This document shows, piece by piece, positions 6,646-62,310 of a DNA stretch of 64,000 bases. The notes beneath the pieces are model-generated. The model was not told where the DNA came from, searched no databases, and worked only from the letters and a program-made list of their open reading frames with translations. The position numbers were made by a program, and so were the translations under genes. Each line of letters begins with the position of its first letter. Position 1 is the stretch's first letter. This stretch comes from an uncultured Acidobacteriia bacterium (GTDB lineage: Bacteria > Acidobacteriota > Terriglobia > Bryobacterales > Bryobacteraceae). The stretch lies in the NCBI GenBank assembly GCA_903851195.1, contig CAINNJ010000055.1:124001-188000 (forward strand), read 5' to 3'.

Positions 6646-6794
6646 AACTCTCTTCCCAAATCACCCACGACATCCACGATTCTGAACCGCCCCCCATCCT
6701 CGGCACCTGGGCCAGGGTGAATATCGCAGTGCTCTGCTGGCTGGCGTTCCTGATTCTGCTGGCCTGGGCCTTCACCGAATACTTCTCCGCATGA
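6642..6794 (+). CDS. Small single-span membrane protein paired with symporter
   Basis: A 50-residue protein starting at TTG, which overlaps the PhzF stop, and ending at TGA, which overlaps the symporter ATG (ATGA). Translation gives a polar 20-residue head ending PPPILGTWARVN and one hydrophobic segment (IAVLCWLAFLILLAWAF) with a short FTEYFSA tail. The double coupling and the pattern of a LGxW motif before one membrane span argue for a real gene. The head-plus-span layout is what one sees in small proteins encoded ahead of SSS symporters. It may be an accessory subunit of the symporter; that is inference. Confidence 0.75.
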   Translation: MKLSSQITHDIHDSEPPPILGTWARVNIAVLCWLAFLILLAWAFTEYFSA

Positions 6795-8494
6795 CGCCTC
6801 TTGACTGGATTGTGATGGCGATCACCATCGTCGCGATACCTGCGTTCGGACTCTGGAAGGGCCGGGGCAGCAACACCGTGAACCAGTACCTGCTCGCGGG
6901 TAAGACCATGCCGTGGTACGCCATGGGCCTTTCCATCATGGCCACCCAGGCCAGCGCCATTACCTTCATCGCCACCACCGGCCAGGCCTATGTGGACGGC
7001 ATGCGCTTCGTGCAGTTCTATTTCGGACTGCCGATCGCCATGGTCATCCTCTCCGCCACCGCCGTCCCGATCTTCCACAAATCCGGCGTCTACACCGCCT
7101 ACGAATACCTGGAAAAGCGTTTCGACGCCAAGACCCGCGCCCTCGCCGCCGTTGTTTTCCTGATCCAGCGCGGCATGGCCGTCGGACTCTCCATCTACGC
7201 TCCCGCCATCGTGATGAGCGTGATCTTCGGCTGGCCGGACCGCGTGACAACTCTGATCATCGGCATTATCTGCGTCGTTTACACCACGAAAGGCGGCATC
7301 CCCGCCGTCACCTGGACGGACGTGCTCCAGATGACGATCATCTTCTCCGGCCTGATCCTCGGCCTGGTCACTGTCGTCTCTCTCATGCCCCGCGGCGTCA
7401 GTTTCACCGATGCCGTCTATCTCGCCGGCGCCGTCGGGAAACTCAACGCGGTCGACCTCAAATTCGACCCGAATAACCGATACAACCTCTGGAGTGGGCT
7501 GATCGGCGGCTCGTTCCTCGCCCTCGGCTATTTCGGCTGCGACCAGTCCCAGGTGCAGCGCTATCTCACCGGCAAATCGGTCGCGCAAAGCCGCCTCAGC
7601 CTGCTCTTCAACGCCACCGCCAAAGTGCCGATGCAGTTCTTCATCCTCTTCGTCGGCGCCATGGTGTTCGTTTTCTATCTCTTCATCCAGCCGCCCATGC
7701 TGTTCGAGAAGAACGCCATGAAAACCGTCGCGGCGCTGCCCGGTTATCAGGCCGCGCAAAGCCGTTTCGATGCCGCCTGGAACCGCCGGACCACCGCCGC
7801 GCAGGCGCTGAACGCCGCCCGCAAACAGGAAGCCGCCCGGCCTCTTTCCGCCGCGCTCGCCGAATATCGCGCCGCCCAGACCGAACTCGACGCCGCGCGG
7901 AAAAACGGGATCGAGCTTTACGAGAACTCGCAGAATAAGGGCGTGCTGAACCCCGTAAAGTTCAACGATACAAACTATATATTCCTGTCTTTTGTCACAA
8001 AATATTTCCCCGTGGGCTTTGTCGGCCTGGTCATCGCGGTGATTTTTACCGCCGCCATGTCGTCGAGTTCGGGCGAGCTGAACTCGCTCGCCGCCGTCAG
8101 CGTCATGGATATTTACCGCCGCCACTTCCGCGCCGGCGCCACCGACCGGCATTACCTTCTGGTCTCCCGCCTGTTCACCGCGATGTGGGGCGTCTGGGCC
8201 GTCGTTTTCGCGCAGTACGCGAAATATCTGGGTTCTCTGGTGGAGGCCGTTAATCAGGTCGGCTCTTTCTTTTATCCCGTCCTGCTCGGCGTTTTCGTGC
8301 TGGCTTTCTTTTTTCGCCGCGTGCGGGGTTCCGCCGCTTTCTGGGCCATGCTCGCCGGGGAATGCGCCATTGTCGGCTGCGCCGTTTTCACCAGAATCGC
8401 TTTTCTCTGGTACAACGTAATCGGCGCGCTGGTGGTGGTGGCCTTCGGATTATTATTCTCGATCGGGAAAAAACGCGCGCCGGCTGCCGAATAA
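6791..8494 (+). CDS. Sodium:solute symporter (SSS family)
   Basis: A 567-residue transporter with many hydrophobic segments. The N-terminal half shows the SSS pattern (YLLAGKTMPWYAMGLSIMATQASAITFI; GLPIAMVIL; YTAYEYLEKRFDAKTRALAA) and the later ALGYFGCDQSQVQRYLTGKS and AAMSSSSGELNSLAAVSVMDIYRR, the latter being the conserved sodium-site helix. Between the two blocks about 85 polar, alanine-rich residues (roughly 305-395) form a probable coiled-coil insertion. Substrate cannot be deduced. It shares an operon with the small membrane protein and the PhzF-like enzyme. Confidence 0.9.
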   Translation: MTPLDWIVMAITIVAIPAFGLWKGRGSNTVNQYLLAGKTMPWYAMGLSIMATQASAITFIATTGQAYVDGMRFVQFYFGLPIAMVILSATAVPIFHKSGVYTAYEYLEKRFDAKTRALAAVVFLIQRGMAVGLSIYAPAIVMSVIFGWPDRVTTLIIGIICVVYTTKGGIPAVTWTDVLQMTIIFSGLILGLVTVVSLMPRGVSFTDAVYLAGAVGKLNAVDLKFDPNNRYNLWSGLIGGSFLALGYFGCDQSQVQRYLTGKSVAQSRLSLLFNATAKVPMQFFILFVGAMVFVFYLFIQPPMLFEKNAMKTVAALPGYQAAQSRFDAAWNRRTTAAQALNAARKQEAARPLSAALAEYRAAQTELDAARKNGIELYENSQNKGVLNPVKFNDTNYIFLSFVTKYFPVGFVGLVIAVIFTAAMSSSSGELNSLAAVSVMDIYRRHFRAGATDRHYLLVSRLFTAMWGVWAVVFAQYAKYLGSLVEAVNQVGSFFYPVLLGVFVLAFFFRRVRGSAAFWAMLAGECAIVGCAVFTRIAFLWYNVIGALVVVAFGLLFSIGKKRAPAAE

Positions 8495-51675: not shown

Positions 51676-53031
51676 ATGGGGGCTCCCCGTATTCTGATTG
51701 CCGACGATCAGCCGGACGTGCTGGAAGCCCTGCGCCTGCTGCTGAAGCCGGAAGGGTTCCAGACGGAGCAGGCGAACTCGCCTTCGGCGGCGCTGGATTT
51801 GATTGAGACGCGGGATTTCGACGGCGCCATCATCGATCTGAACTACGCGCGCGATACGACGTCCGGCGCGGAAGGGCTGGATCTGCTGAGCGCTCTGCAG
51901 ACGCGCGATTCGCTGCTGCCGGTCATCGTGATGACGGCATGGGGCAGCGTGGATATCGCGGTGGAGGCGATGCGGCGGGGGGCGCGCGATTTTATCCAGA
52001 AGCCGTGGGAGAACGCGCGGGTGCTGGCCATCGTCAAAACACAGGTGGAACTGGGGCGCGCGCTGCGGACGGCGCGGAAGCTGGAAGCCGAAGACCGGGT
52101 GCTGCGGGCGGTGGACCGGCCGGTGTTTATCGCGGAATCCCCGGCGATGAAGCAGGTGCTGCGGATTATCGGCGATGTGGGGCCGTCGGATGCGAACATC
52201 CTGATCACCGGGGAGCCGGGGACGGGGAAGGAAGTGGTGGCGCAGACCATCCACGCGGTGTCGCAGCGGAGTAACCGGCGTCTGGTGGCGGTGAATGCGG
52301 GCGGGTTGTCCGAAGGCGTGTTCGAGAGCGAACTGTTCGGGCATGTGCGCGGGGCGTTCACGGATGCGAAGGCGGACCGCATCGGGCGGTTCGAACTGGC
52401 CGACGGCGGGACGCTGTTCCTGGACGAAATCGCGAATATCAGCGGCACGCAGCAGGCGCGGTTGCTGCGCGTGCTGCAGACCGGCGAACTGGAGCGGGTG
52501 GGCTCGTCACGGACCATCAAGGTGGACGTGCGGGTGCTTTCGGCGACCAATGCGGAACTGGGCGCGGAGGTGGCGGCGGGGCGGTTTCGGGCCGATCTGC
52601 TGTACCGGCTGAATGCGATCGAGATCCATCTGCCGCCGCTGCGGGAGCGGCGCGAGGACATTCCGGCGCTGGCCAGTTTCTTTCTTTCGAACTATGCGGT
52701 GAAATATCGCAAGCAGGTGAGTTCGTTCGACAGCGCGGCCATGCGGGCCATGCTGGAGCACGACTGGCCGGGCAATGTGCGCGAACTGCAGCACGCCATC
52801 GAGCGGGCCGTGTTGCTGGCGCAAAGTGACAAAATACAGGCAGCGGATTTCGGACTGCGCGGCGCGCGCACGCCGCAGCGTCTCGAAGAACTGAGCCTCG
52901 AACAGGTGGAAGCGTTGCTCATCCGGAAGGCGATGGCGCGGTATGAAGGCAATGTCAGCAAGGCGGCGAACGCGCTGGGGCTGAGCCGGAGCGCGCTTTA
53001 TCGACGGCTGGACCGCTACGGGATCGCTTGA
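51676..53031 (+). CDS. NtrC-type response regulator with AAA+ domain
   Basis: A 451-residue regulator: receiver (ILIADDQPDVLEALRLLLKP, phosphorylation aspartate in GAIIDLNYARD, VIVMTAWGSVD, and the lysine in FIQKPWENA), AAA+ domain with Walker A GEPGTGKE, GGTLFLDEI Walker B and WPGNVRELQHAIER, and an HTH_8 of Fis type (NVSKAANALGLSRSALYRRLDRYGI). The sigma-54 contact loop reads GAFTDA instead of the near-invariant GAFTGA. The ATG at 51676 was chosen because it starts the receiver domain; the frame is open upstream. Together with the kinase it should control the efflux operon. Confidence 0.9.
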   Translation: MGAPRILIADDQPDVLEALRLLLKPEGFQTEQANSPSAALDLIETRDFDGAIIDLNYARDTTSGAEGLDLLSALQTRDSLLPVIVMTAWGSVDIAVEAMRRGARDFIQKPWENARVLAIVKTQVELGRALRTARKLEAEDRVLRAVDRPVFIAESPAMKQVLRIIGDVGPSDANILITGEPGTGKEVVAQTIHAVSQRSNRRLVAVNAGGLSEGVFESELFGHVRGAFTDAKADRIGRFELADGGTLFLDEIANISGTQQARLLRVLQTGELERVGSSRTIKVDVRVLSATNAELGAEVAAGRFRADLLYRLNAIEIHLPPLRERREDIPALASFFLSNYAVKYRKQVSSFDSAAMRAMLEHDWPGNVRELQHAIERAVLLAQSDKIQAADFGLRGARTPQRLEELSLEQVEALLIRKAMARYEGNVSKAANALGLSRSALYRRLDRYGIA

Positions 53032-54368
53032 GACGAAAGACTTCGAAAAAGCGCTGGCTCAACTTTGAGCGCAGACTTTTTATCCTGGCCCTTTGCGCGG
53101 GCGCGCCGGCGCTGATTGCGACCGCGATTCTGCTGTCGATTGACGACTACGCGCCGGGCACGCGCTGGACAGTAGGCACGATTCTGCTGCTGGCCTGGGT
53201 GGGTTTCGCGGTGTCCGTGAAAGAGCGCTTCGCGTATTCCATGCGAACGCTGGCGAATCTGCTGGGCGCCTTGCGGGACGGCGATTTTTCCTTCCGGCTG
53301 CGCATGGACGATCGCGGCAGTCTGGGCGAAGTCTACGCGCAGATTAACGAGATGGCGGAGACGCTGCATGAGCAGCGGTTGGGCGCGATGGAAGCGACGG
53401 CGCTGCTGCAGAAGGTGATCAGCGAGATCGACGTGTCGATTTTCGCGTTCGATTCGGGCGGGGCGCTGCGGCTGGTGAACAAAAGCGGAGAGCAACTGAT
53501 TCAGTTGCCGGCGGAACAGGCGATGGGGGAATCGGCGGAGCATCTGGGACTGGCGCCGTATCTGACGGGTCCGGCTTCCTTCGTGACGCGGGCGGTGTTT
53601 CGCGGCGGGGCGGGGCAGTGGAGCGTGCGGCGCGGGGACTTCCGGGAGAGCGGGCAGCCGCATCAGTTGCTGGTGCTGTCGGATATCACGCGCCCGTTGC
53701 GTGAAGAAGAGTTGCATGCGTGGCAGCGGCTGGTCCGTGTGCTGGGGCATGAGATCAATAATTCGCTGACGCCGGTGAAGTCTTTGTCGTCGAGTCTGCT
53801 GACGCTGGTTTCGCGGGAGCCGCTGCCGGAGGACTGGCAGGAGGATGTGCGCTCCGGGCTGAATGTGATTTCCAACCGGTGCGACGCGCTGAACCGCTTC
53901 ACGGGCGCTTATGCGCGGCTGGCGCGGTTGCCGCAGCCAAAGCCCCGGCCGATGCGCGTGGCCGAGTGGGTGGACCGGGTCGTGCGCCTGGAGCAGCGGC
54001 TGACGGTGCGGGTGACGGCGGGACCTGAGGTGACGATCCGCGCGGATCCGGATCAGCTGGATCAGTTGCTGATTAACATTGTGCGCAATGCGGTGGACGC
54101 GACGCTGGAGCGGATGGGCGAGCGGGGCGCGGTGTCGCTCGAATGGCGGGAGAGTTTACGGGGAGTGGAGATCCTGGTGGATGACGAGGGGCACGGGATC
54201 GCGAATCCGGCGAATCTGTTCGTGCCGTTCTTTACGACGAAGCCGGGCGGGTCGGGGATCGGATTGTTTTTGAGCCGGCAGATCGCGGAGGCTCATGCGG
54301 GCACGGTGACGCTGAAGAACCGCACGGGGGCGACGGGTTGCCGGGCCTGTATTACGCTGCCGTTGTAA
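53028..54368 (+). CDS. Sensor histidine kinase, NtrY/KinB-like
   Basis: A 446-residue membrane kinase starting at TTG, which overlaps the regulator stop (TTGA). Two spans (about 20-40 and 48-65) enclose a short loop; then HAMP-like and PAS regions, and the HisKA H-box VLGHEINNSLTPVKSL, the N-box DQLLINIVRNAVDATL and G-boxes VDDEGHGI, TTKPGGSGIGLFLSRQIAEAHAG. The last residues, GCRACITLPL with the stop, are encoded by a 37-base sequence found again at 56344-56380. Confidence 0.92.
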   Translation: MRRKTSKKRWLNFERRLFILALCAGAPALIATAILLSIDDYAPGTRWTVGTILLLAWVGFAVSVKERFAYSMRTLANLLGALRDGDFSFRLRMDDRGSLGEVYAQINEMAETLHEQRLGAMEATALLQKVISEIDVSIFAFDSGGALRLVNKSGEQLIQLPAEQAMGESAEHLGLAPYLTGPASFVTRAVFRGGAGQWSVRRGDFRESGQPHQLLVLSDITRPLREEELHAWQRLVRVLGHEINNSLTPVKSLSSSLLTLVSREPLPEDWQEDVRSGLNVISNRCDALNRFTGAYARLARLPQPKPRPMRVAEWVDRVVRLEQRLTVRVTAGPEVTIRADPDQLDQLLINIVRNAVDATLERMGERGAVSLEWRESLRGVEILVDDEGHGIANPANLFVPFFTTKPGGSGIGLFLSRQIAEAHAGTVTLKNRTGATGCRACITLPL

Positions 54369-54372
54369 GCGA
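54336..54372 (+). repeat. Direct repeat, left copy (37 bp)
   Basis: Perfect direct repeat with 56344-56380. It encodes GCRACITLPL, the stop codon and a few more bases. It marks the left side of the AAA/TOPRIM cassette. Confidence 0.95.
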
Positions 54373-54439
54373 TCGTGCGCAGTCGCGGATACCAAAAACT
54401 TTGAACCAATGGTTAGACTCTAAGTTCGCACATTTGCAA

Positions 54440-55624
54440 ATGCTCAGCCGTATCAAGATAGAATCATTTAAATCCCTGGAAGATGTCGAGATCGATCTTG
54501 GTCTCGTCAACGTCTTCGTGGGCGCCAACGGGAGTGGAAAGAGCAATCTCCTCGAAGCGATCGGAGTGATTTCCGCGGCTGCGAGCGGGCGTGTGGACGA
54601 TGAGGCTCTGATGCGGCGCGGAGTTCGCCCCGGGCTGCCGCAGCTTTATAAGTGCGCACTGATCGGCGCGGCAAAGACTCCGCACATCGTTTTCTCAGCG
54701 GAGAATGAAGATGCCGCTTACAAGGTTAGTCTCTTTAACCCGATGAAGGACCCCCAGCCGGCATGGCGCTATCACACCGAATCGTGGCGCAGTGCTGACC
54801 GGGAACTCGCGGGCCGGTCGCACCGGATGAAATCGAAGCCCAATCCGGAGGCCGGCTTCGCGGCTTTGAAAGCCCTGGAACTGCCGGCCGGAGACCCGGC
54901 GCTGGCTTTACTCGATCTTCTGCGAAATTACGCGATCTACGAGCCGAATACGCCAACCCTGCGGGGCGCCACGCCGGAACGGCAACCCCGGGAGCCTTTG
55001 GGCTTGTCCGGGGGAGGCCTGCCCCAGGCCGTTCATTCTTTGGTTCGCGCGTCTCGCCGCGACGAGGAACTCGAAGCGCTGTTTAATGGTTTTTGCGAAC
55101 TGATCGACTGGGCGCGCTCCGTCGATTCGGCTTCAGCGTCGGACATTCCTCTTTCTCCTTCGGCCGCCACGTCGAACCAGGTCGTTCGGTTTGTCGATCA
55201 GTTCATGAAGTCCGGCCGGAACGTACTCTCCGGCGCGGATGCGAGCGAGGGCGCTCTTTACGTACTGTTTGCCGCGGTGCTTGCCCTTGATGAACGAGCG
55301 CCCCGGTTGCTGGCAGTCGATAATGCCGATCACGGTCTGAATCCCCGACTTGCGCAGGCCCTTATCGGCCGGATCTGCGACGGCGTGCTCAGGGCGAAGG
55401 TATCCCGACAGTTGCTCCTGACGAGTCACAGCCCGCAGGTGCTTGACGGACTGCCGCTCCGTGACGACCGTGTGCGGCTTTTCACTGTCTCACGAACGAA
55501 TACCGGTCGAACGGTGGTTCGCCGTGTGGAGGTCGACGACGAACTCATGAAGATGGGCCGGGAAGGATGGACGCTGTCGCGTTTGTGGGTGATGGGGCAC
55601 CTGGGCGGCGTGCCGAATGTCTGA
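54440..55624 (+). CDS. RecF/OLD-like AAA family ATPase (AAA_21 type)
   Basis: A 394-residue SMC-like/ABC-type ATPase: MLSRIKIESFKSLEDVEIDLGLVNVFVGANGSGKSNLLEAIG with Walker A G28-S35, and the C-terminal part ALYVLFAAVLALDERAPRLLAVDNADHGLNPRLAQALIG, LLLTSHSPQVLDGL with D-loop-like and H-loop-like elements. The Walker B acidic pair reads DN rather than DE, which may be a feature of this subfamily. The ATG at 54440 was chosen because it starts the strand-loop of the family; the frame continues upstream into the kinase end. It overlaps the TOPRIM gene by eight bases. It likely acts with that partner on nucleic acid, perhaps as an anti-phage sensor. Confidence 0.85.
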   Translation: MLSRIKIESFKSLEDVEIDLGLVNVFVGANGSGKSNLLEAIGVISAAASGRVDDEALMRRGVRPGLPQLYKCALIGAAKTPHIVFSAENEDAAYKVSLFNPMKDPQPAWRYHTESWRSADRELAGRSHRMKSKPNPEAGFAALKALELPAGDPALALLDLLRNYAIYEPNTPTLRGATPERQPREPLGLSGGGLPQAVHSLVRASRRDEELEALFNGFCELIDWARSVDSASASDIPLSPSAATSNQVVRFVDQFMKSGRNVLSGADASEGALYVLFAAVLALDERAPRLLAVDNADHGLNPRLAQALIGRICDGVLRAKVSRQLLLTSHSPQVLDGLPLRDDRVRLFTVSRTNTGRTVVRRVEVDDELMKMGREGWTLSRLWVMGHLGGVPNV

Positions 55625-56327
55625 TCCCCTGCGGATCGGTTTTGTGGTGGAGGGGCCTACCGACCGCGTGCTTCTGGAAGCAATCGTCTCCCGCCTGCTG
55701 GATGGACGGGAATACGTTCCGGAACAACTGAGCCCTGAGTTATCGGAAACCTTTGCTCCTTTAAGCGGCGGCGGATGGACTTCGGTGTATCGTTGGTGCC
55801 GACAGGCCGCGAGTCAGGCGGGGGACGCATTGCACGGCAATCCGCTGTTGCGACGCTTTGACATGCTGATTGTCCACGCAGATGCGGATGTGGCGGGCAG
55901 AAGCTATCGTGACGACCAGCGGATTGCCGATGCGCCCCGCGACCTGCCTTGCGAGCGGCCGTGTCCGCCCGCTTCCGATACCACACACGAACTGCGGGAG
56001 GTCATGCAGGGCTGGATGGGAGCGTTGTCCAGCCAGTCCAATCTGGTTCTGTGTACGCCGTCAAAATCGATTGAAACGTGGATATTGGTTGCTCTCTATC
56101 CGGAAAATCCGATTGCGCGCGACCCCCACGTGGAGTGCCGCCCGAATCCCGACGCGCAACTGCAGAATGCCCCGCTCGCGGGGAGAATGATCCGCGGGGG
56201 AAAAAAGGATCGCAGGATGTATCGGCAACGCGCCAGGGAGGTGGCTGCCGCGTGGGACGTCGTTACGCAACGCTGCCCGGAAGCCGCGAGGTTCTCTGTC
56301 GAGGTCAGGATCACACTGGCAGGTTGA
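55617..56327 (+). CDS. TOPRIM-like protein (DUF4276-like) partner
   Basis: A 236-residue protein. Its start RIGFVVEGPTDRVLLEAIVSRLL has the TOPRIM glutamate (EGPTD, E12) and MLIVHADADVAG supplies the DxD (D89, D91). TPSKSIETWILVALYPEN resembles the PxxSIExWLL segment of DUF4276 proteins. A nucleolytic effector role is likely by analogy with other ATPase/TOPRIM pairs such as OLD and PARIS. The stop lies 16 bases before the right repeat. Overlap of eight bases with the ATPase suggests one operon and equal production. Confidence 0.75.
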   Translation: MSDPLRIGFVVEGPTDRVLLEAIVSRLLDGREYVPEQLSPELSETFAPLSGGGWTSVYRWCRQAASQAGDALHGNPLLRRFDMLIVHADADVAGRSYRDDQRIADAPRDLPCERPCPPASDTTHELREVMQGWMGALSSQSNLVLCTPSKSIETWILVALYPENPIARDPHVECRPNPDAQLQNAPLAGRMIRGGKKDRRMYRQRAREVAAAWDVVTQRCPEAARFSVEVRITLAG

Positions 56328-56343
56328 GACGGGCGCTCCGTTC

Positions 56344-56380
56344 GGTTGCCGGGCCTGTATTACGCTGCCGTTGTAAGCGA
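56344..56380 (+). repeat. Direct repeat, right copy (37 bp)
   Basis: Perfect copy of 54336-54372. In-frame continuation to the left reads TGAPFGCRACITLPL instead of TGATGCRACITLPL, that is, an alternative, complete kinase end. Confidence 0.95.
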
Positions 56381-56516: not shown

Positions 56517-57299
56517 ATGCGAGTTATACAACGTGGGTTACTCACAACCCTTTTCCTGACTGCAATTCCGCTTTCCGTCTTTAGTCAAAGCACCAGCTTC
56601 ACGACGGCGTCGGCGGGCAACTGGACGCCGATCGTGGCTCCCGATTCCATCGCGGCCGGGTTCGGCAGCGGGCTGGCTGCCTCCACTACGAGTACGACAA
56701 CGTTGCCGCTCTCCACAACACTGGGCGGCGCCACCATCACGATCACGGACCGCACGGGCAAGAAGCTGCCCGCACAGCTGTTTATGGTCTCGCCGGGTCA
56801 GATCAACTATTTGATTCCGGCTGCCGCGGCGATCGGTCTTGCGACCGTCAGCGTCGCCGCCAATAACAGCACCTTCACGGGGTCGGTGGACATTTCCAAT
56901 GTGTCACCCGCCATCTTTACCGCGAACAACACGGGCTACGGAGTGCCGGCGGCCCAGGTACTCAGTGTCGGCACGGATGGGAAAGGGACGCTCTCCGCGC
57001 CTTACCAGCCGGGCATCTTTGGTTTCACGACGAAGCCTGTCGATATCTCCAGCGGGAGCGTTTACCTCGTGCTCTACGGGACAGGGTTGCGGCGTCACTC
57101 CGCGATCCCGGTCAAGGCGTCCATCGGAGGCATCAGTGTTCCGGTGGCCTTTGCCGGCCCGCAGGGCACACTGCCGGGGCTGGATCAGGTGAATCTGGGA
57201 CCGCTTCCAAAGTCTCTGTCCGGTAAAGGTTCCGACGTGAATCTCATTGTCACGGTGGACGGCAGTCCGGCCAATATCACGCGCGTCGCCATTCAGTAG
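56517..57299 (+). CDS. Secreted protein with TIGR03437-like Solibacter C-terminal domain
   Basis: A 260-residue protein with a signal peptide (MRVIQRGLLTTLFLTAIPLSVFSQ) followed by NWTPIVAPDSIAAGFGSGLAASTTSTTTLPLSTTLGGATITITDRTGKKLPAQLFMVSPGQINYLIP and IFTANNTGYGVPAAQVLSV... LYGTGLR. This is the typical pattern of the TIGR03437 domain that is abundant in Solibacter-type Acidobacteria. Unlike the usual location at the end of long proteins, here it is essentially the whole protein. It is probably cell-surface or secreted; function unknown. It is followed, 40 bases later, by a ferritin-like gene. Confidence 0.85.
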   Translation: MRVIQRGLLTTLFLTAIPLSVFSQSTSFTTASAGNWTPIVAPDSIAAGFGSGLAASTTSTTTLPLSTTLGGATITITDRTGKKLPAQLFMVSPGQINYLIPAAAAIGLATVSVAANNSTFTGSVDISNVSPAIFTANNTGYGVPAAQVLSVGTDGKGTLSAPYQPGIFGFTTKPVDISSGSVYLVLYGTGLRRHSAIPVKASIGGISVPVAFAGPQGTLPGLDQVNLGPLPKSLSGKGSDVNLIVTVDGSPANITRVAIQ

Positions 57300-58188: not shown

Positions 58189-60738
58189 TTATTTAAGCCG
58201 TGCCGCGATTTCGGCGTGCGCTTTTTCGGAGTCGCGGATGACGTCGGGTGCGGTTAAGAAGCCGCCGCTTTTGAGCTGATCGTAAAAATGGGCGGCGCGC
58301 CGCCAGGCTTCGGTAGCGGCCTCTGTATTGCCGAGTGCGGTTTCGATGGCGGCGAGTCGGCTCTCATGGGTGGCCAGGTTGATGCGCACCGGCACGCCTT
58401 TGGGATCCACCTCGAACAGCTTGCGCTGCAGAGCGAGGGCTCTCTGGATGCTGGCGAGGGACTGCTGTTTATCGCCCTTGTTCAGCAGCACGAGAGCCCT
58501 TTCGGAATAGTTGCCGGCCAGCATGGAGCGGCTGCGGGCGTCGCGTTCGTCCAGTGCGATAGCGCGCTCGCGGAGCGCGATGGCGTCATCGAAGTGGTCA
58601 AGCGCTTCCTGGTAGCGCTTCAGGGCGCCTAACGACACGCCGAAGAAATGGTGCGTGCTGGCCATTTCGAAGTCGATCTGCGTTTCGTTCCAGGGGATGG
58701 CGGCCAGGCTCTTCTGGATTTTGAGCGCCTCGGCGAGATCCACCAGGGCGGCTTCGGAGCGATTGTCCTGGGCCTCCACCAGACCGAGATGATAGCGGAC
58801 CATGGCGAGGTTGCGCTGGGAATCGCGGTCCGCGGGATCCGCCGCGAGCTTCTCGCGAATCGGCACGGCGTTGCGCAGCGTGGCGATGGCTTCGTCGGCT
58901 TTCCCCGCAATGTTGAGACCGGTGGACAGGCTGGCCCAGGTATCGGCGAGCAGCACCTGATACTCGCGATTTCCCGGAACCTGCGCGGTCAGGGACAGCG
59001 CGATGGCGAGCGCTTTGCGGTCCAGCACCTCCATGTCGCGGACGCTGCCGGCGCGGCTGGTCATCAGGCTTCCCACCAGGTAGCTGGAGGCCAGTTCGTA
59101 CTGGGCGGTGAGATCGGAGGGCTGCTCGGCGGCCAGAGCTTCGCGGATAATACGGGCAGTTTGCCAGGTTTTCAGGGAGTCCGCGGACTGGCCGATGGTG
59201 CCGAGCAGATTGGCGAAACGCTCGCCGGCCAGCGCGAGGGAACGGCGTGTTTCGCGATCCTGTCCGGCATCCCTGGCGAGGCCGTTCAGATAGAGAAGAG
59301 ACTTGCGGAGCAGGGCCTCGCGGGCGGGCAGGGAGCCGGGCAGCCGCGAGATGTTGTCGTGCAGGTCGAAGAGCAGAGTGGCGGCGAGCTTCCGGTCTTC
59401 GTTGACGCGGACAGACAGCCGGCGCGCCTGCCAGACAGCGGCCACGGTGGACACGCAGAGCAGACAGGTCAGAATGGCGGCCGTGCCGACGCCAAGGCGA
59501 TGGCGGCGAACGAATTTGAGCGCGAGGTAAATGACGGTGTCGCCCGCGGCCCTGACGGGGCGGCCGTCGAGGTAACGCTGCAGTTCGTCGCTGAACTGAT
59601 CGACCGAGAGATAGCGCCGGTCGGGCTCTTTCCGAAGGGCAAAACCGAGAATGTTATCGAGATCGCCGCTGAGCTGACGGCGCAGACCGTCCGCCGTGGT
59701 CCGGCGGCTGCGGGCCAGATGATCGGCTTCCGCGGCGTCCTTCGGCTTGCTGGCCGCGGCTTCGCTGGCGCGCATCGGTTCGCGCTCGCAGATCAGCGTG
59801 GTGGCGTTCTCCCACGTGACGCTGTCCACGCGGTAGGGACGATAGCCGGTGAGCAGGCGGAAGAGGACGACACCCAGCGAATAGATATCGGTCGCAACGC
59901 CCACATGTTCACCCCGGATCTGTTCAGGGCTGCACCAGGCGGGCGTGCCGACGCGTTCCGAGGTCATAGTGAGTTCGCCGCTCTCGCCCGTGTTGGGCTC
60001 AAGAAGTTTGGCGATGCCGAAATCGAGCAGTTTGGGAATGCCGTCTCCGGTAACCAGGATGTTGTCGGGCTTCAGGTCGCGATGCACGATCAGGTTGCGA
60101 TGCGCGCAGGAGACGGCGTCACAGACTTTGCGGAAGATGGCGACGCGTTCCCGGACGCTGAGTTGCCGCTCATCGCAGTAGCGCGTGAGCGGCATGCCGG
60201 GCACGTATTCCATGACGAGATACGGCTGGCCGGAACTGGTCTTGCCGCCATCGAGCAGGCGGGCGATGTTGGGGTGTTCGAGGCGGGCGAGAATCTGGCG
60301 TTCCTGACGAAAACGATCGAGCAGGATACGGGAATTGAAACCGCGGCCGAGAATTTTGACGGCGGCCTCAATGCTGAACTCGCCGTCGCCCCGCGTGGCT
60401 TTATAGACGGCGCCCATGCCGCCGCGGCCGATTTCTTCGGTGAGCAGCCACTCACCGGCGCGCGTGCCTTCCAGACTGCCTTCGGATGACGAAGGGGAGT
60501 TCGCTGCGCCGGAAGCCGGGCCGGAGACCAGCGAGACGATGGAGCCACGCACCAGAGACGTGATTTCGCGGTTGCCGCCGCCGTCGGCAGCCAGCAGGCT
60601 TTCCACTTCGGCGCGGAGTTCCGGTTGCGCGAAGCAGACGGTCGCAAGGTACTGCTCCCGGGCGGGGCCGGAAAGCTCGACCGCCACCAGAAAAATTTCT
60701 TCGATCCGCTTCCAGTCGTCCGTATTCTGCAACACCAC
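58189..60738 (-). CDS. Serine/threonine protein kinase with TPR-like C-terminal region
   Basis: An 849-residue protein from GTG 60738 (GTG 60735 and TTG 60732 are alternatives). Residues 1-80 are the acidobacterial kinase N-terminus (DWKRIEEIFLVAVELSGPAREQYLATVC). The kinase domain (about 95-365) has GRGGMGAVYKA, the lysine in AAVKIL, HRDLKPDNILVT and DFGIAKLL. A membrane span follows at about 410-432 (GVGTAAILTCLLCVSTVAAVW). The extracytoplasmic region of 400 residues consists of TPR-like helical repeats. It should phosphorylate proteins in response to a periplasmic signal. The gene diverges from the oxidoreductase with 72 bases between. Confidence 0.9.
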   Translation of the reverse strand: MVLQNTDDWKRIEEIFLVAVELSGPAREQYLATVCFAQPELRAEVESLLAADGGGNREITSLVRGSIVSLVSGPASGAANSPSSSEGSLEGTRAGEWLLTEEIGRGGMGAVYKATRGDGEFSIEAAVKILGRGFNSRILLDRFRQERQILARLEHPNIARLLDGGKTSSGQPYLVMEYVPGMPLTRYCDERQLSVRERVAIFRKVCDAVSCAHRNLIVHRDLKPDNILVTGDGIPKLLDFGIAKLLEPNTGESGELTMTSERVGTPAWCSPEQIRGEHVGVATDIYSLGVVLFRLLTGYRPYRVDSVTWENATTLICEREPMRASEAAASKPKDAAEADHLARSRRTTADGLRRQLSGDLDNILGFALRKEPDRRYLSVDQFSDELQRYLDGRPVRAAGDTVIYLALKFVRRHRLGVGTAAILTCLLCVSTVAAVWQARRLSVRVNEDRKLAATLLFDLHDNISRLPGSLPAREALLRKSLLYLNGLARDAGQDRETRRSLALAGERFANLLGTIGQSADSLKTWQTARIIREALAAEQPSDLTAQYELASSYLVGSLMTSRAGSVRDMEVLDRKALAIALSLTAQVPGNREYQVLLADTWASLSTGLNIAGKADEAIATLRNAVPIREKLAADPADRDSQRNLAMVRYHLGLVEAQDNRSEAALVDLAEALKIQKSLAAIPWNETQIDFEMASTHHFFGVSLGALKRYQEALDHFDDAIALRERAIALDERDARSRSMLAGNYSERALVLLNKGDKQQSLASIQRALALQRKLFEVDPKGVPVRINLATHESRLAAIETALGNTEAATEAWRRAAHFYDQLKSGGFLTAPDVIRDSEKAHAEIAARLK

Positions 60739-60774
60739 TCAGGTAACATTGTGCCTGAAGAGGCCGCGCAGCGA

Positions 60775-60780
60775 TATAAT
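60775..60780 (+). promoter_or_regulatory. Candidate -10 element of the oxidoreductase gene
   Basis: TATAAT, a perfect -10 hexamer, inside GCGAT-ATA-ATCGC, a 5-bp-arm inverted repeat. The -35 region is not convincing. The ribosome site GGAGG (60801-60805) and the TTG at 60811 follow. Confidence 0.35.
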
Positions 60781-60810
60781 CGCAGGCGGATACTCAAAAG
60801 GGAGGCTGTG

Positions 60811-62310
60811 TTGGCCTACAATTTTTCCAGACGTTATTTCTTTTACGGTTCGTTGCTCGCCGGCGCCATTCCGAGCAAAGGTTTCGGGAGTGTGCCGTCG
60901 CTCAAGGCGGCCGGTTACAAATCCCCCAACGAGAAACTGAACATCGCCTCGATCGGCTCGGGCGGCAAGGCCGCCAGCGACATCGCGGGCTGCGCGCACG
61001 AGAACATTGTGGCGCTCTGCGACGTGGACGAAAAGCGGGCCGCGCAGGTCTTCAAGAAGTATGAGAGCGTACCGAAGTTCAAAGATTTCCGGAAGATGCT
61101 CGACGAGAAGGGCAAAGACATCGATGCCGTGATCGTGACGATTCCGGATTTCATGCATGCGACGGCGGCCGTTTGGTGCATGGAGCGCGGCAAGCACGTG
61201 TATGTGCAGAAACCGCTGGTGCGCACGGTGTGGGAAGCCCGCCTGATGCAGGACACGGCCAATAAATACAAGGTCGCGACGCAGATGGGCAACCAGGGCT
61301 ACTCGAACGAAGGCACCCGGCAGGTGGCCGAGATGGTGTGGGCGGGCGAGATCGGCAACGTGAAGGAAGTGCACGCCTGGACGGATCGTCCGTGGTGGCC
61401 GCAGGGGCTGACCGAAATCCCGGCGCCCGATGAAGTGCCTTCGACGCTCGACTGGGATCTGTGGCTGGGCAACTCCGAGAAGCGTCCGTATACGTCGGGC
61501 GGCAAGGGTTATCCGAACGATTACGGGAACTTCTATCAGCCGTTCAACTGGCGCGGGTTCTACGACTTCGGTTGCGGCGCGCTGGGCGACATGGCGTGCC
61601 ACATTCTGGGCGCTCCGAACATGGCGCTGAAACTGGGCGCGCCGACGAGCGTGGAGTGCGTGTCGAAGGAAGGCACCAGCAATTTCATGTTCCCGAAGAA
61701 GTCGGTAATTCGTTACGACTTCCCGCAGCGGGGCAGCATGCCGCCGGTCTCGATCTTCTGGCACGACGGTCTGAAGGAAAGCCCGAAGGTGGCCGGCGTT
61801 CCCGAAGGCGAACTGCTGGGCGATCTGCCTTCGCGTCCGCGTCAGCAGGGCGCGGCACCCCGGCCGCAGCAGGCGCCGAACGGCTATGTCGGCAGGATCT
61901 TCAACTGGGAGCAGTTCCAGGACGCGCTGGCTCCGGACGCGCGCAGTTCCGGCCCGAACGGCAGTCTGTTCGTCGGCGACAAAGGCATGATCACGACCGG
62001 CACGTATGGCGAGCAGACGCGTCTGCTGCCGGCGGCCGAGAAGATGAAGGACTACAAGTTCCCCGAGCAGTTCCTGACGCGGTCGCCCGGTCACTATCGC
62101 GACTGGATCCGGTCCGCGAAGGGCGGGGATCCGTCGTGCTCGAACTTCAACGTCGCGGTGCCGTTTGTCGAGTGGATGCTGCTCGGCGTGATCGCGCTGC
62201 GCGTGGACGGCAAGCTCGAATGGGATGCGGCGAAGGGCCGGTTCACGAACAATGCGGAGGCGAATAAGTTCCTGAAGCCGACGTATCGGAAGGGCTGGAC
62301 GCTCAGTTAG
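60811..62310 (+). CDS. Gfo/Idh/MocA-family oxidoreductase with Tat signal
   Basis: A 499-residue protein. The TTG at 60811 was chosen because GGAGG lies five bases before it, while GTG three bases earlier is too near. The N-terminus FSRRYFFYGSLLAGAIPS is a twin-arginine signal. The Rossmann part (LNIASIGSGGKAASDIAGCAHENIVALCDVDEKRAAQVFKKY, VIVTIPDFMHATAAVWCMERGKHVYVQKPL) fits the NAD(P)-binding fold of the family, and EIGNVKEVHAWTDRPWWPQG starts the substrate domain. The motif EKPL is VQKPL here, with the lysine kept. Exported members act on sugars or sugar acids in the periplasm; the substrate is unknown. Confidence 0.9.
   Translation: MAYNFSRRYFFYGSLLAGAIPSKGFGSVPSLKAAGYKSPNEKLNIASIGSGGKAASDIAGCAHENIVALCDVDEKRAAQVFKKYESVPKFKDFRKMLDEKGKDIDAVIVTIPDFMHATAAVWCMERGKHVYVQKPLVRTVWEARLMQDTANKYKVATQMGNQGYSNEGTRQVAEMVWAGEIGNVKEVHAWTDRPWWPQGLTEIPAPDEVPSTLDWDLWLGNSEKRPYTSGGKGYPNDYGNFYQPFNWRGFYDFGCGALGDMACHILGAPNMALKLGAPTSVECVSKEGTSNFMFPKKSVIRYDFPQRGSMPPVSIFWHDGLKESPKVAGVPEGELLGDLPSRPRQQGAAPRPQQAPNGYVGRIFNWEQFQDALAPDARSSGPNGSLFVGDKGMITTGTYGEQTRLLPAAEKMKDYKFPEQFLTRSPGHYRDWIRSAKGGDPSCSNFNVAVPFVEWMLLGVIALRVDGKLEWDAAKGRFTNNAEANKFLKPTYRKGWTLS

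Follow-up and report, generated by a model that had tools for sequence, protein, structure and literature searches.

A 64,000-nucleotide stretch of the genome of an uncultured Acidobacteriia bacterium (positions 124,001 to 188,000 of contig CAINNJ010000055.1, here C55; the whole stretch is called the window) carries a two-gene module matching the candidate defence system PDC-M31 directly behind a sensor histidine kinase gene and between two copies of a 37-bp direct repeat. A series of M31 loci in other genomes gives good support to reading this gene pair as an insertion, and we lean moderately towards an account in which the pair was acquired horizontally and inserted behind the kinase without a dedicated recombinase, duplicating a long piece of the target. 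The window seems to exemplify a mode of insertion that has been described before for defence genes.

Positions 54336-54372 and 56344-56380 (forward strand) were identical at 37/37 bases with a spacing of 2008, which confirmed the repeat noted from the sequence alone. The kinase open reading frame (ORF) at 53028-54368 (forward strand; Pfam HATPase_c 1.1e-16, weaker HAMP and PAS matches) truly ends in the left copy, which consists of its last 11 codons (GCRACITLPL and the stop, 33 nt) followed by 4 nt. The peptide and the stop are present in both copies, as first described, and the trailing bases number four rather than seven. The right copy is an isolated kinase-end fragment that starts 16 nt after the stop of M31B. 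An in-frame extension of it, ‘TGAPF’, had also been read as kinase sequence; it is no evidence for a longer displaced kinase end, since 35% of random 20-mers from the window are at least as similar to the kinase as the 20 nt just before the copy. The insert between the copies (54373-56343, 1971 bp) holds the two M31 genes and short margins, and the other ORFs listed in it overlap with these. Its GC content, earlier taken as a sign of insertion because it is lower, is unremarkable (0.608 vs a mean of 0.629, standard deviation 0.025, for stretches of 1971 bases, 24 of 124 being as low or lower).

The 37-mer (up to 3 mismatches) occurs at two sites only in the 7.72-Mb genome, both of them here, and base composition alone predicts about 1.6e-12 exact 37-bp pairs in the window. 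Exact direct repeats of at least 24 bp at a spacing of 0.9-6 kb were sought in 896,556 bases (11.6%) of this genome and fell into four groups. Two lie within a single tandem pair of Gfo/Idh-like genes, the third is a 26-bp pair on contig C4, and the fourth is the 37-bp pair, which was the sole exact pair of at least 30 bp at that spacing outside a tandem paralogue. Recombination between close kinase paralogues, offered earlier as an alternative source of the repeat, is without support, as only the kinase itself reached E ≤ 1e-60 among the 28 of 65 own-genome candidates that were scored.

M31A (54440-55624, forward strand), whose start was placed from homologues at 71 nt from the kinase stop, encodes a 394-aa AAA_21/RecF-SMC-like ATPase with the Walker A motif GANGSGKS. 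It matches the PADLOC model PDLC04570 over its full length (residues 1-394, 514 bits, 8.2e-155) and Pfam AAA_21 at 5.3e-19. M31B (55617-56327, forward strand), its 236-aa partner, matches PDLC04571 over residues 1-232 (226 bits, 1.4e-67). The two genes are adjacent, overlap by 8 nt and fill the insert. Of the earlier description as an AAA/TOPRIM cassette, the ATPase half was borne out and the TOPRIM label proved weak, with Pfam Toprim matching one of 65 members of the M31B family at only E 0.031. In an alignment of these 65 sequences E12 was invariant and D16, D89 and D91 were conserved at 90% or more; a Protein Data Bank (PDB) sequence search with the alignment gave no match at E ≤ 1. M31B is possibly a TOPRIM-like effector.

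PDC-M31 is listed in PADLOC-DB v2 as a candidate defence system, the prefix PDC presumably being the PADLOC label for candidates, and no mention of the name was found in the literature searched. With both proteins matching over full or nearly full length, the insert is a candidate anti-phage module with a predicted defence role. It resembles PARIS (AriA/AriB) in pairing an AAA ATPase with a small partner, and M31A matches an AriA model at 2e-19; M31A fits the PDC-M31A model far better, however, and M31B had no AriB match at E ≤ 0.1, matching three PDC-M31B models and, weakly, HEC-01B only.

The distribution of M31A was sporadic. At E ≤ 1e-60 it was found in 4 of 237 genomes of the family; all 18 other members of the same genus lacked it. 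Each of the four family members lies directly behind a different co-oriented ORF, and at two of them (L269 and L270) the stop of the upstream ORF overlaps the M31A start codon. The closest M31A seen was on a contig of a metagenome-assembled genome (MAG) of Verrucomicrobia, at 75% identity, and the other three family members were farther away (54-55%), which suggests that the gene was acquired by horizontal transfer. Two scans of viral contigs gave no confirmed M31 relative; distant M31B sequences were found in one plasmid record and one phage record.

A kinase match at E ≤ 1e-60 was present in 25 of the 60 relatives searched. Up to 0.9 kb behind the kinase stop, none of the 25 had a DNA match to the insert or the right flank (best local score 14), and tblastn with the M31 proteins was negative at the kinase loci of the nine genomes tested among them. 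When the right flank was searched in 19 genus genomes (own included), matches outside the own genome were short or weak only. We infer insertion at the window locus because of the M31 family match, the sporadic M31A, the relatives lacking an insert match behind the kinase and the footprints found elsewhere.

Those footprints were sought at 80 M31 loci in genome contigs, the best of those from 239 confirmed relatives; most of the 80 carry MAG titles. With the window, L031 and L054 this made 83 loci, of which 78 had enough flank (L060, L081, L096, L100 and L134 were left out). A close flanking repeat was defined as a local direct match of score at least 18 between the 400-bp flanks. Such repeats occurred at 11/78 M31 loci against 8/1179 pseudo-sites, which were placed in 63 of these loci (p about 1e-9, Fisher test; the pseudo-sites are non-independent and all eight hits came from two loci). 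A wider test gave 17/78 against 7/1500 cross-paired flanks. Two loci over the threshold were set aside, L126 as an AT-rich simple repeat and L107 for its resemblance to a dispersed cyanobacterial repeat, and nine were trusted (the window, L055, L063, L069, L070, L075, L083, L084 and L095).

What the repeats copy differs from locus to locus. Besides the kinase end in the window, it is the end of a DUF4159 gene at L075 (the same place as L268), the end of an ATPase gene on the other strand at L083, the 3′ end of a tRNA-Leu gene at L063, and at L095 a 57-bp segment made up of the end of an S4 gene, its stop and the next start codon. The repeats at L055, L084 and L069 are apparent hsdR starts or an hsdS end, labelled mostly by eye, the downstream ORF at L055 having an HSDR_N match; that at L070 is a 158-bp stretch of neighbouring sequence. 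For L095 the junction is uninterrupted and has a single copy in three relatives, which makes this locus a real insertion with a 57-bp duplication. The earlier claim of an inserted cassette is supported, by inference, as to insertion, on the family match, the sporadic M31A, the footprints and the L095 empty site; its second part, site-specific integration, was not supported.

Under insertion with target duplication, illegitimate recombination or template switching would have joined a donor fragment carrying the M31 pair to the chromosome at the gene end. The joining would duplicate a target segment of between some tens and about 200 bp and would need no dedicated recombinase. The kinase would remain intact on the left, a kinase-end fragment would be left on the right, and the 37-bp repeat would be the footprint. 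Transcription of the co-oriented gene upstream then probably benefits the module. Judging from the protein families only, the AAA ATPase may sense infection and unleash its partner, maybe a TOPRIM nuclease, in a roughly PARIS-like manner.

Several observations weigh against this account. At the threshold used, 67 of the 78 M31 loci had no close flanking repeat. Among the four family loci, repeats were present at the window and L075 and not at L269 and L270, which stand apart from the 78 and whose best repeat scores were only 10 and 14. A syntenic empty site for the window was not found by the right-flank search of the 19 genus genomes. The contrast with a control built on ParE toxin loci was not significant (2/30 vs 13/78 M31 loci with a repeat, p=0.23), so that M31 is not shown to be special in leaving such a footprint, which could well be common to small accessory modules. 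One of the two control repeats resembles, by eye, a footprint of this sort. The control comprised 30 loci of the same phylum with 700-bp flanks and module bounds guessed at 350 nt on each side, in a similar and not identical test; any repeat in 1.5-kb flanks was seen at 5/30. A second control family, Abi_2, was found in 4/396 genomes, too few for use. Two ParE loci, L246 and L252, lie between long direct repeats, and the one at L246 resembles a duplicated gene start by eye.

Two further points on the same side concern where the repeats lie: the L063 repeat is a tRNA-Leu 3′ end, a classic integrase target, and the repeat sits at a 3′ end in 5/9 trusted loci. The 3′ ends of genes are sites that integrases choose, and e14 at icd is a case in which the element supplies the gene end. 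A tyrosine recombinase, acting in trans or since lost, may accordingly be supposed to have integrated the pair at the kinase 3′ end, with the 37-mer as att core and the element restoring the kinase end. We consider this somewhat unlikely. It has on its side the gene 3′ ends at the window, L075, L083 and L095 together with the tRNA-Leu end, the intact kinase, as in the integrative elements that use the 3′ ends of tRNA and protein genes, and 15 Phage_integrase matches in the own genome. Unlike such elements, the insert has no integrase and none was found on C55 (no Phage_integrase match). The nine trusted repeats were moreover unrelated in pairwise comparison, 1/36 pairs being alike (L055/L084, score 27) and the others scoring at most 9, and those at L055, L069 and L084 are apparently copies of the start of hsdR or the end of hsdS. 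A dedicated core site of site-specific integration, as first proposed for the 37-mer, is not what these comparisons show.

No tyrosine recombinase was found in the 80 M31 loci or the window with a home-made profile of untested sensitivity (14 own-genome sequences, run on ORFs of at least 80 aa; serine recombinases were not searched), so the linked integrase that had been suggested as a check did not appear. The earlier remark that no recombinase is encoded within the insert holds, in that two family-matched genes fill it and no insertion sequence or recombinase was seen, although no transposase search was made. The genome of L083 has a second M31 copy (L194, 11853-13999; G456:C51) about 2.5 kb from two tyrosine-recombinase-like ORFs, and the best flanking repeat score of that copy is only 15.

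The differences between repeat copies also count against a simple target duplication. At L075 and L095 the copies differ by 6 codons, 6/6 of them synonymous (28 codons compared), which is easier to explain if the gene ends come from two functional alleles than if a single duplication has decayed; the same is expected of a substitute end borne by an integrase-driven element. The L083 copies show one synonymous and one V/I change, and those of L061, which passed the wider tests only, 4 synonymous and 5 non-synonymous changes (L055 was left out of this comparison). Since the window copies are identical, they cannot decide the allele question. Synonymous-only differences are likewise what one-sided homologous recombination would give, in which DNA from a relative with M31 already behind the same gene entered by homologous recombination within that gene and by illegitimate recombination at the other side, so that the recipient kept its own gene end downstream. 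The process is known as homology-facilitated illegitimate recombination (PMC3240628), and PMC5361080 proposes it for effector gene ends found displaced in Vibrio cholerae. We nevertheless regard it as decidedly unlikely for the window, where the two copies are identical and no donor was seen, M31A being present in 0/18 other same-genus genomes; both papers describe the process as rare.

It is very improbable that a local accident, a tandem duplication or an assembly error, made the repeat independently of the arrival of M31. One relative, G007 (L037, G007:C106), speaks for such an event, as a 31-nt kinase-end stretch recurs there about 128 bp on with no M31 behind it in the stretch examined; it is the one genome of the 25 kinase-bearing relatives with a local repeat at the kinase end. 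Against it, the M31 pair is tightly enclosed by the repeats, an arrangement far above local background at other M31 loci.

Insertion with long target duplication has its closest parallel in restriction-modification systems, for which long and variable target duplications on insertion are reported in PMC3031569 and PMC1643837; the literature credits such insertions to Nobusato et al. 2000 and Furuta et al. 2010. There, as in the window with its 37-bp target repeat on both sides, small selfish or defence genes are flanked by a long, variable target repeat; unlike the restriction-modification cargo described there, the cargo here is the PDC-M31 pair, in several phyla. The window adds a candidate anti-phage pair to the modules that apparently relocate with no evident recombinase and duplicate a long piece of target in doing so. 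Such a footprint makes insertion events countable, and it suggests a route by which small defence modules enter ordinary chromosomal and restriction operons outside recognised mobile elements.

That the M31 pair is itself a minimal self-moving defence unit seems highly doubtful. It is equally far-fetched that, in such a unit, the ATPase and its TOPRIM-like partner would make staggered breaks at gene ends, offset by tens to hundreds of bases, with repair inserting the pair and producing the long target duplication. Were this true, the immunity genes and the mobility machinery would be the same two proteins.

Among neighbours long enough to score, the upstream ORF was co-oriented with M31 at 58/76 loci. 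An HsdS domain was found in 11/76 upstream neighbours and an HsdR N-terminus in 4/60 downstream neighbours, and M31 is accordingly often, not mainly, next to restriction genes. The locus L069 (282-4421) has a tandem arrangement of two M31 pairs, of which the second was identified by eye, and between them a short ORF that is seemingly an HsdR start fused in frame to an HsdS end; similar HsdR and HsdS pieces lie beside M31 at L055 and L084, with RhuM genes nearby. On an Enterobacter plasmid M31 adjoins SAVED, ThiF-like and Mov34/MPN genes. In the L070 locus, at 6700-7760, the duplicate on the downstream side consists of two segments of the upstream region joined together, and the stretch missing between these segments has a 67%-identical copy elsewhere in the same genome, as if the left copy had later gained an insert.

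In the window itself, a gene for an NtrC-type regulator lies upstream of the kinase, together with ORFs that resemble ABC-transporter genes by eye. To the right of the insert and outside it, a Soli_cterm protein is encoded at 56517-57299 (forward strand; NCBIfam TIGR03437, 5.1e-30). The Gfo/Idh-like genes at 60625-62310 of the window, and those at L034 (4280-5830), are tandem paralogues with 75% protein identity. The 26-bp direct repeat on contig C4 (G000:C4:186520 and 191456, L206) surrounds 4.9 kb of the own genome, and two Phage_integrase fragments lie within that stretch at 190307-190754.

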